DNA from: Nitrosarchaeum sp.
GTDB taxonomy: Archaea > Thermoproteota > Nitrososphaeria > Nitrososphaerales > Nitrosopumilaceae
DNA: 64,000 nucleotides
Reading direction: 5' to 3'
Assembly (NCBI GenBank): GCA_003569705.1
Contig: BGOU01000001.1
Location: 124,001 to 188,000 of the forward strand
This document shows positions 24,913 to 30,350 of the stretch, piece by piece. The translations under genes and the position numbers were made by a program. The notes under the pieces were generated by a model. The model was not told the origin of the DNA. It did no database searches and saw only the letters and a program-made list of their open reading frames with translations. Each line of letters opens with the position of its first letter. Position 1 is the first letter of the stretch.

Positions 24913-25768
24913 TTATCTAGGAAAGTATCTACTTTTTTTATTCAGAGTTTTTGATTTTTCGGGTTCAGTTTTGGCTTGAGGTTGTCTAATCTCATTACAG
25001 TTTAAACAAAGAACTCTCAAATCTTTCCTAGCCAATTCTGGTTCAGAGATATACTTACCCCATGAAGATGCAACCCCCCCTCTTCGTATACTATCAAATG
25101 CATCTTCATCGTTAACATGATTAAAGCCTAAAGCTCTTTCGTCTTTAAATCCACATCTAGAACATGTTTTACCACCTAGAATTTCAAATAATTTTTCTTT
25201 TAAAGAAGAATAGAATTTTTCAGAACCGTTAGAATAAAAACTCTCTGTCTTTTTTAGGAATTTTTCACTTTTAGATCTATTTATTCTAAAATCATCTTGA
25301 TTTGATCTTGAACCTCTTTCATCTCTGGAATATCTATCTCGTGATGGTCTTTCATCTCTGGAATATCTATCTCGTGATGGTCTTTCATCTCTGGAATATC
25401 TATCTCCATCTTCTTGGGGTTTATGTTTTTGAAAACATTCACTGCAATAAACAGGTCTGTTAAATTTTGGTTCAAATGGTATTTGACATTCATCCCTACA
25501 ATCACCACAGGTTACAGTATGCATTTCTGGTTTTCTTTCATCTCTGGAATCTATCTCGTGATGGTCTTTCATCTCTGGAATATCTGTCTCGTGATGGTCT
25601 TTCATCTCTGGAATATCTATCTCGTGATGGTCTTTCATCTTGAGAATTTCTGTAAGATCGTAAAGGTTGCTCATCTTTAGAATTTTTGCTTGAAGTTTGA
25701 TTAGGTTTTGAATGTCTATCAAATTTTTTGTCAGAGTATTTTGCTTTGTATAGATCCATTTTTCTCAT
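24913..25768 (-). CDS. Zinc-ribbon/HNH-like protein with minisatellite repeats, frameshifted
   Basis: The natural start is MRKMDLYKAKYSDKK (25768), running through Arg/Asp/Ser repeats of unit DERPSRDRYSR. At about 25549-25552 one repeat copy lacks two bases, so this frame ends at 25538 while the continuing frame is open to 24913. Restoring two bases gives one protein of about 285 residues: disordered start, repeats, CxxC ribbon (CGDCRDEC ... YCSECFQKH), a second repeat block, then an HNH-like C-terminal domain with CSRCGF, NHV and CLNCN. Such zinc ribbons usually bind RNA or DNA. The break may be a sequencing error or true repeat slippage. Confidence 0.75.
25314..25640 (-). repeat. 33-bp tandem repeats in two blocks (about 25314-25410 and 25534-25640)
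   Basis: Each 33-base unit encodes the 11-residue repeat DERPSRDRYSR of the zinc/HNH protein. Roughly three copies stand in each block, nearly identical at the nucleotide level. One copy in the upstream block reads GGAATCTATCTC where the others have GGAATATCTATCTC, losing two bases and shifting the frame. Confidence 0.85.
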
Positions 25769-28923: not shown

Positions 28924-29816
28924 TTACTTTGAACTTTCAGAGACGGTTTCAGACCATTGAAGTACATCTTCAAATTTTTCAGATATTAAATCTGAATCAA
29001 TTTTTGTCTTTTTTCCAACTTTTCCGCATAATGCTAACCGTATTCGTTTTCCCAATTTTTCCTTAATTGAGTTTATAGATTCTGCAAAAAAGTTGAGTCC
29101 TTCTTCAGTATTGAAAAGACTAAGATGATCATTACGCCTGATTTTTGTTTCCAAATTTTTCCCATTAATTTTTGCAAATCAAGATCAAATAAGACATTGA
29201 TTGCAGATGACATATCACCCAAATGAAAAACTTTCCATTCAACAGAATGTAAGGATGCAGAAGCTGCTTCAGATAACAAGTTACTGTGAGCATCAGCTGA
29301 AAGTACGATGATATTCTTTTTTGGGTTTGAATCTATTGGAATTTGATTGAAAATTTGAAGTGATTTAGATACTATATTTTGTAATAATTTTTCCTCAGAA
29401 TTTCCAATTTTACCATCATCATATAGTCTTTGAATCGAATCTATTGAGGGGATTATCACTTCAGTAACAAGTTTGTGCACTGATGCCCCAGAATTAAGAC
29501 AATTTTTAATTAGTGAGTAAACTTGAGCCTCTTGTCCTTTTACTAAATTTTCAAGATACAGTGGTGCAACTTTAAAGTAATCAGCGGGAAAAGAATATGC
29601 CTCTTGTCCTGGTTCTAAAAACCATAATGTAATATTTCCAATATTTTTTTGTCTAAGAAATCCTTCTGCAGCAAATACTTTGAGATATGTTGTCATTGTA
29701 GTTCTATTTACACCAAGTTTTTCAGAAATTTCAACCCCTGACATTCCTGTCTTAGAGTCTTCGAGCACATCAATCAATTTCTGCCTTATCTCTGAAGATT
29801 GATATCCCCTACCCAT
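28924..29816 (-). CDS. Winged-helix regulator with B12-binding-like domain, frameshifted
   Basis: Two overlapping frames form one protein of about 297 residues when one base is added at the T run 29169-29173 (minus strand reads LDLQK then INGKNLETKI). Domains in order: winged helix (about 5-70, MSGVEISEKLGVNRTTMTTYL), a four-helix bundle (about 85-155, QEAQVYSLIKNCLNSGASVH), then a Rossmann module with LSADAHSNLLSEAASASLHSV and KVFHLGDMSS, where D-x-H is the B12-ligand signature. This is the layout of CarH/cobalamin-binding regulators, although the glycine after the His is missing. It could sense cobalamin or light. Divergent from 29964 across direct repeats. Confidence 0.75.
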
Positions 29817-29858
29817 ATTGCTCCAGAGTTAAGGTATTGTATAAAGACTAATTTTCAT

Positions 29859-29903
29859 CAACCGATAGGTAACAGGCTAAATTTTCAACCGTCAAGGTAA
29901 CAG
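29859..29903. promoter_or_regulatory. Pair of direct repeats in a divergent promoter region
   Basis: CAACCGATAGGTAACAG (29859-29875) and CAACCGTCAAGGTAACAG (29886-29903) lie between the divergent regulator (start 29816) and the gene at 29964. The repeats start 27 bases apart, close to two or three helical turns, and precede a TATA box at about 29921-29930. They look like operator half-sites, possibly for the adjacent regulator. Binding is inferred. Confidence 0.45.
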
Positions 29904-29963
29904 TACCAGAGCCATAAAATCTTATATACTTCGGTACTTTATTGTACGGTAAGGAAAAGTAAA

Positions 29964-30350
29964 TTGCCAAAAGCTGGATTCAAATCAATAACTGTCGCAG
30001 AAACTGTTTATGATAAATTCCAAGATGTATATCAAAAAAACAAAGACAATCTTGCAATGAAAGGTGTCAACAGTTTTTCAGGTTATGTAACTTACATGTT
30101 AGAAGAGATGATGCAAAAGGACAAGACCTTTGCAAGATATGCTCCAAAGATTGAGAAAATTTCCGTAGATGATGATCGTGTTATTTTAAAAGATAATATC
30201 AAAAATAGAATTGCAGAAGTTGCAGTACAAAAAGGAGAATTATTCTGTCAGCTTTGTGAAGAAAAAAATTGTGTCCACATCGGATTTGTATTTTCACTTC
30301 CTGACGTGTACGAAATTTTGAATTCTAGAGGAATAAAACATCCAAAATAA
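29964..30350 (+). CDS. Hypothetical protein with C-terminal Cys cluster
   Basis: 128 residues from TTG 29964; the TATA box at 29921-29930 suits it. The N-terminal 45 residues (KAGFKSITVAETVYDKF) have ribbon-helix-helix-like spacing, a strand followed by two helices, and the C-terminus carries FCQLCEEKNCVH, a potential zinc site. It may be a small DNA-binding protein. Transcribed away from the B12-domain regulator. Confidence 0.6.
   Translation: MPKAGFKSITVAETVYDKFQDVYQKNKDNLAMKGVNSFSGYVTYMLEEMMQKDKTFARYAPKIEKISVDDDRVILKDNIKNRIAEVAVQKGELFCQLCEEKNCVHIGFVFSLPDVYEILNSRGIKHPK

Follow-up and report, generated by a model that had tools for sequence, protein, structure and literature searches.

A CarH-fold regulator family of Nitrosopumilaceae with the cobalamin-contact residues lost, and a transposon end between its promoter and that of a divergent gene

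In a window of 64,000 nucleotides (nt) from Nitrosarchaeum sp. (assembly GCA_003569705.1, contig BGOU01000001.1, positions 124,001 to 188,000; positions below are counted from the first letter of this window), a minus-strand gene encodes a predicted transcriptional regulator with the fold of CarH, in which the residues that contact cobalamin in CarH have been replaced. We read it as a transcription factor of the CarH fold that functions independently of cobalamin and most likely has the promoter region shared with a divergent gene as its target, a conspicuous pair of repeats in that region being uninvolved; we give this reading a probability of about 0.68. It is carried by computed results, i.e. 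the fold prediction, the loss of cobalamin-contact residues, the conservation and pairing of the two genes, and the identification of the repeats as part of a terminal inverted repeat (TIR). With its CarH fold, lost cobalamin residues and non-MerR DNA-binding domain, the family is a variant on a known type of regulator, and it is widespread in one archaeal order. Ammonia-oxidising archaea are abundant and few of their regulators are understood; a regulator that Nitrosopumilaceae retain although its cobalamin site has gone would clearly exemplify how a scaffold for cofactor sensing can be put to use for a different signal.

Fold, domains and distribution of the regulator

Relatives of the regulator were found in 132 of the 151 Nitrosopumilaceae genomes, with at least some of the absences falling at contig breaks, and more divergent relatives occur across other families of the order. 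The named relatives nearest to the window protein belong to Nitrosarchaeum. An AlphaFold model built from 17 relatives (predicted local distance difference test, pLDDT, 85) consists of a winged helix, a four-helix bundle and a Rossmann domain. When this model was compared with the PDB by Foldseek, the top match was CarH of Thermus thermophilus (TtCarH; 5c8f, E 2.3e-9); next came photocobilins and further cobalamin domains of the CarH type (template modelling score ~0.72, normalised to those domains). The term "CarH-like" used in the initial annotation of the window was thus apt for both fold and domain order: the regulator has the architecture of CarH/LitR, namely a DNA-binding domain, a helical bundle and a Rossmann domain of the cobalamin type, and shares its domain order with TtCarH (5c8d, 5c8e and 5c8f), its best fold match.

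By Pfam domain identification, the winged helix and four-helix bundle named in the same annotation were both above cut-off in the window protein (HTH_IclR at amino acids (aa) 14-56 and B12-binding_2 at aa 88-147), and the bundle was matched in 15 of the 17 family members. No match to the MerR N-terminal domain was found in the family, the matches being of the HTH_IclR/MarR type; CarH/LitR carries a MerR domain, whereas the archaeal regulator has an IclR/MarR-like winged helix. The Rossmann B12-binding family PF02310 was matched by none of the 17 members in Pfam, and the regulator received neither a PF02310 nor an NCBIfam assignment, which agrees with the earlier remark that it is not a standard family. 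A non-exhaustive literature search returned no paper that brought a B12-binding domain and a transcriptional regulator together with Thaumarchaeota and Nitrosopumilus.

Residues of the cobalamin site

H132 of TtCarH is the upper ligand of the light state, and structures of CarH with the H132A substitution were among the PDB fold matches of the model. The key adenosylcobalamin-binding residues of TtCarH include W131, E141, H142 and H177 (PMC11796333). The CarH segment with W131, H132, E141 and H142 gives a gap-free alignment with the regulator family, as read by eye, and the residues at the CarH positions were counted in 72 unique relatives. The W131 position is occupied by Tyr/Phe and the H132 position by Asp/Glu/Asn, and at the E141 position 41 sequences have Gln and 12 have Glu. 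At the H142 position Asn/Lys/Ser/His/Gly are found (His in 2), and at the H177 position Gln/Glu/Lys/Tyr/His/Asn (His in 3). Instead of the Wx9EH of the CarH helical bundle the family has Y/F-x9-[QEKLRVA]-[NKSHG], and D/E-x-H-x-x-G with the lower-ligand His is not kept either, the Gly position being Leu/Ile (Gly in 0/72). None of the deep branches of the family has a complete DxHxxG motif with both His and Gly, and the family lacks the published light signature GxxW/EH/GxxH/GxxxP (PMC11796333).

The D-x-H that had been taken as a cobalamin signature is real in the window protein (D-A-H at aa 175-177 of the 247-aa reading frame), yet it is not a conserved ligand motif: we regard it as incidental, since D-x-H occurs in only 3/72 unique relatives, and rejected it as a ligand motif. 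Cobalamin or light sensing, also proposed in the initial annotation, is not supported, given the family-wide replacement of the axial-ligand and adenosyl-contact positions of CarH, with W131, H132, H142, H177 and DxHxxG not conserved in the archaeal regulator.

CarA of Myxococcus xanthus is a B12-independent paralogue of CarH (PMC9304148) and resembles the archaeal family in being a CarH relative that regulates without B12, but the archaeal family lacks even the motifs that CarA retains, and its DNA-binding domain differs as well. Class II LitR (Pseudomonas PmlR/PplR) keeps the helical bundle only, is B12-independent and is the partner of a LOV protein (PMC9758184). Here the likeness is that only B12-binding_2 is recognisable by Pfam, the C-terminal domain being degenerate. 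Class II LitR differs in its MerR domain, which the archaeal regulator lacks, and in working together with a LOV photoreceptor; no such partner of the archaeal regulator came to notice in the stretch examined, in which no systematic search was made.

A transposon end between the two promoters

The pair of CAACCG..GGTAACAG copies, starting 27 nt apart, is present just as first described. With three mismatches allowed, each repeat pattern is expected 1.3-1.4 times per 64 kb by chance, and the pair cannot be attributed to chance because two exact copies lie within 45 nt. The repeats are absent in relatives with an undisturbed intergenic region (~98-120 nt). Enlarged intergenic regions, on the other hand, often hold a 51-nt sequence, GGTACTGTT..CGGTTGA..CTGTT..CGGTTGAT, hard against the divergent promoter and alignable to the window without gaps; its pattern is matched exactly in relatives L010 and L006 and with 1-2 differences in L011 and L032. 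In a search of 61 genomes the 51-nt sequence was found in four, in a single copy each and always at the regulator locus. Sister TIR types with other unit sequences and the same layout occupy the same place. Both ends, in inverted orientation, are present in L070 and L075, where identical 8-bp flanks (ATTCTAAA and TTATTTTA, respectively) indicate a target duplication; these complete pairs are of sister types, the window's own end type being unpaired in every genome examined. Transposase fragments occur in L009, L010, L057 and L073, that of L057 having a weak match to DDE_Tnp_IS240 (E 1e-3, below cut-off), and none was found in the intergenic region of the window.

In IS6 elements the termini carry GG at the tip together with cTGTt (PMC7986276), and the repeat end in the window likewise has a GG tip followed by CTGTT. 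The 8-bp target duplications are also common to the IS6 family (IS26 and relatives) and the elements found here, and relatives hold the transposase fragments with the weak, below-cut-off IS240-type DDE match. The ends of IS6 elements are usually 15-20 bp, whereas those described here are 50-59 nt with two internal units, and the window keeps one end and no transposase. The double repeat is a solo TIR of an IS6-like element, and the supposed operators are its internal units. Their role as operators was rejected on the grounds of this identity and of their absence in relatives free of the insertion sequence (IS); they are found only where the element has inserted, and a lack of repeats in related genomes, which the initial annotation itself had held to count against its proposal, is what the IS-free relatives display. 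A wrong lead is thereby removed, the apparent operators being a transposon scar.

The insertion site between the two promoters is a recurrent transposon hotspot. Double-unit ends of several sequence types (50-59 nt) were observed in the intergenic region of the window (29817-29963) and in the relatives L070, L075, L023, L026, L057, L207, L211 and L212. Some of these inserts carry cargo open reading frames (ORFs) without an obvious transposase, e.g. the insert in L075, with a 403-aa ORF that is PurD-like by eye and a 155-aa ORF.

The divergent gene and its promoter

The divergent gene is conserved, as had been supposed from its sequence, and faces the regulator gene in 65 of the 74 informative loci (within 250 nt in 50), a pairing that persists at only 35-42% regulator identity. 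From sequence and model, the N-terminus of its product consists of the strand-like FKSITVSE and two helices, and is suggestive of a ribbon-helix-helix, a fold for which neither a Pfam match nor a significant PDB fold match was obtained. The Cys-rich, ribbon-helix-helix-like family to which it would belong is represented by many paralogues across the order's other families. Immediately ahead of the start, the promoters of the paralogues L176-L206 often have a repeat with a 10-bp period, which differs between members.

Among 75 unique divergent-gene promoters we found a conserved TATA box, a GTAC-N6-GTAC-type element, present in most of them, and GGTAAGG ahead of the start codon. The GTAC element sits between the TATA box and the start of the gene, and archaeal repressors often act at sites in this position. 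Only a single match to GTACNTTANNGTACGGTAA with fewer than three mismatches exists in this genome, so a genome-wide regulon marked by the element found no support.

Whose site this is can be judged in part from where it persists. At loci with the regulator 0.6-2.6 kb away the element is still found at the divergent gene, and a version of it lies beside a paralogue of the divergent gene in a genome without a detectable regulator (L213). A set of 13 genomes without the regulator is mostly uninformative on its persistence, as 8 also lack the divergent gene and in others the locus is near contig ends. In other families of the order, relatives of the divergent gene that do not lie beside the regulator have 10-bp-period promoter repeats of their own: 16 of 25 such promoters show them, compared with an expectation of 4.3 (0/100 shuffles) and with 26% of the other promoters in the same loci. 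The 25 promoters are not phylogenetically independent, which counts against leaning on them. The promoter evidence favours binding of the GTAC element by the divergent protein itself. That the element is the self-operator of a ribbon-helix-helix-like protein, with the CarH-fold protein regulating another target or only itself, is therefore a strong competitor, which we place a little short of even odds; the old and tight pairing of the two genes suggests some cross-regulation, however, and the ribbon-helix-helix assignment was made by pattern only.

Proposed mode of action

In a CarH-fold regulator that works without cobalamin, the IclR/MarR-like winged helix would bind DNA, and the CarH-like helical bundle and Rossmann domain would form a module for dimerisation and signal input. 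The input would be something other than His-ligated adenosylcobalamin, such as a partner protein or a different small molecule bound in the cleft between the domains. The regulator would most likely act locally, on the promoter pair common to it and the 128-aa divergent gene, which is its obvious first target. The conserved GTAC-N6-GTAC site could be bound by either the regulator or the divergent product, and the repeats, as an IS6-like transposon end lodged between the two promoters, would take no part. The DNA target, the alternative ligand, the oligomeric state and the direction of regulation are thus what we infer from these comparisons. A more specific version is tentative and on balance unlikely: the interdomain cleft that once took cobalamin would now hold another ligand, and the family would make up, together with the Cys-rich ribbon-helix-helix-like protein, a two-gene regulatory pair of ancient origin.

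Several points weigh against a locally acting, cobalamin-free regulator. Both its DNA binding and its effect on expression are predicted, and the GTAC element may be a site of the divergent protein instead of the regulator. By analogy with the relative cited below, a domain without the axial His might still bind a corrinoid weakly or base-on. If the frameshift at 29112 should prove real, this genome would carry the gene as a pseudogene.

Corrinoid binding in a His-off state, by which the domain would sense cobalamin status without light, could draw on the conserved LGDMS loop and on two residues close to positions of the classic motif, a Ser by SxT and a Gly by GG. One CarH-domain relative, whose H177 position is Arg, still bound hydroxocobalamin (PMC11796333). 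The change of the DxHxxG Gly to Leu, the loss of H142 and W131, and the failure of all 17 members to match PF02310 make His-off binding improbable.

As for the reading frame, the minus-strand ORF 29073-29816 encodes 247 aa as assembled, and the intact relatives have 297 aa. At ~29112 the window is one base short of every relative examined, which shifts the reading frame of the C-terminal end; the missing portion can be followed in a second frame, down to 28924. Of the "cobalamin-domain remnant" in the initial annotation, the domain stands, whereas its remnant state is an artefact of the missing base. Single-base losses also break a peroxiredoxin-like gene (28598) and a methylase gene (30882), i.e. 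three frame-breaking losses relative to related genomes within 2.3 kb, for which assembly indel errors are likely the simplest cause; at 29112 such an error is likely because the two neighboring genes carry the same kind of lesion. For the same reason, the idea of a decaying pseudogene, to which the frameshift and the TIR scar within the promoter region lend themselves, was set aside as still less probable than His-off binding, the coding sequence upstream of the frameshift also being >90% identical to intact relatives.

A switch responsive to cobalamin or light, with the two CAACCG..GGTAACAG units as the operators it binds to control the divergent gene, would fit the CarH fold, the D-x-H of the window copy, the conservation of the divergent gene and the implication of thaumarchaea in cobalamin production (PMC4303638), and is nevertheless very hard to sustain given the family-wide loss of ligand positions, the D-x-H in so few relatives, and the identity of the repeats with a transposon end absent from IS-free relatives.

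Table 1. Coordinates of the regulator locus in the window (BRE, transcription factor B recognition element).
Feature	Position	Strand	Remarks
CarH-fold transcriptional regulator gene (predicted), 297 aa in relatives, two frames here	28924..29816	-	base missing at ~29112
Rossmann domain, aa 167-297, CarH fold	28927..29318	-	DxHxxG degenerate (D-A-H-S-N-L in the window); frameshifted at 29112
Frameshift site	29112..29113	not applicable	one base fewer than all relatives
His177 codon, equivalent of the CarH lower ligand	29286..29288	-	Gln/Glu in most relatives
Four-helix bundle, aa 80-157, B12-binding_2-like	29346..29579	-	CarH W131/H132/E141/H142 are Y/D/E/K in the window
Winged helix-turn-helix, aa 7-67, HTH_IclR-like, not MerR	29616..29798	-	Pfam; secondary structure of the model
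Regulator promoter element AAAATTAGTCTTTATA, BRE/TATA-like	29840..29855	-	conserved; consensus of 74 unique upstream regions
Solo 51-nt TIR of IS6-like element, tip GGTACTGTT	29857..29907	-	holds both "operator-like" units
Repeat unit 1, CAACCGATAGGTAACAG, internal unit of TIR	29859..29875	+	3-nt spacer
Repeat unit 2, CAACCGTCAAGGTAACAG, tip-proximal unit of TIR	29886..29903	+	4-nt spacer
TATA-like box of divergent gene	29922..29928	+	conserved among 75 unique promoters
Candidate operator GTACTTTATTGTAC, GTAC-N6-GTAC, then GGTAAGG	29934..29947	+	conserved
Divergent gene, 128 aa, TTG start	29964..30350	+	putative ribbon-helix-helix-like N-terminus; Cys-rich C-terminus (CxxC...CxH)

Other proteins in the genome and the window

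Two further B12-binding_2 proteins are encoded in the genome, one of 838 aa and one outside the window, on contig C7 around 197459 (locus L098, 1255-2097, plus strand). The latter is a 280-aa protein with a canonical cobalamin module, in which PF02310 and PF02607 are above cut-off, CarH and photocobilins are matched at E 1e-9 to 1e-13, and all four motifs of the light signature are present (GDDW, EH after x9, GEEH and GTSIP). Its motifs make it a better candidate for the B12 or light sensor of the organism than the regulator of the window. Lastly, an ORF elsewhere in the window (24913-25722, minus strand) contains tandem, near-identical repeats of the MKDHHEIDIPE / SRDERPSRDRY type and is open in several frames.
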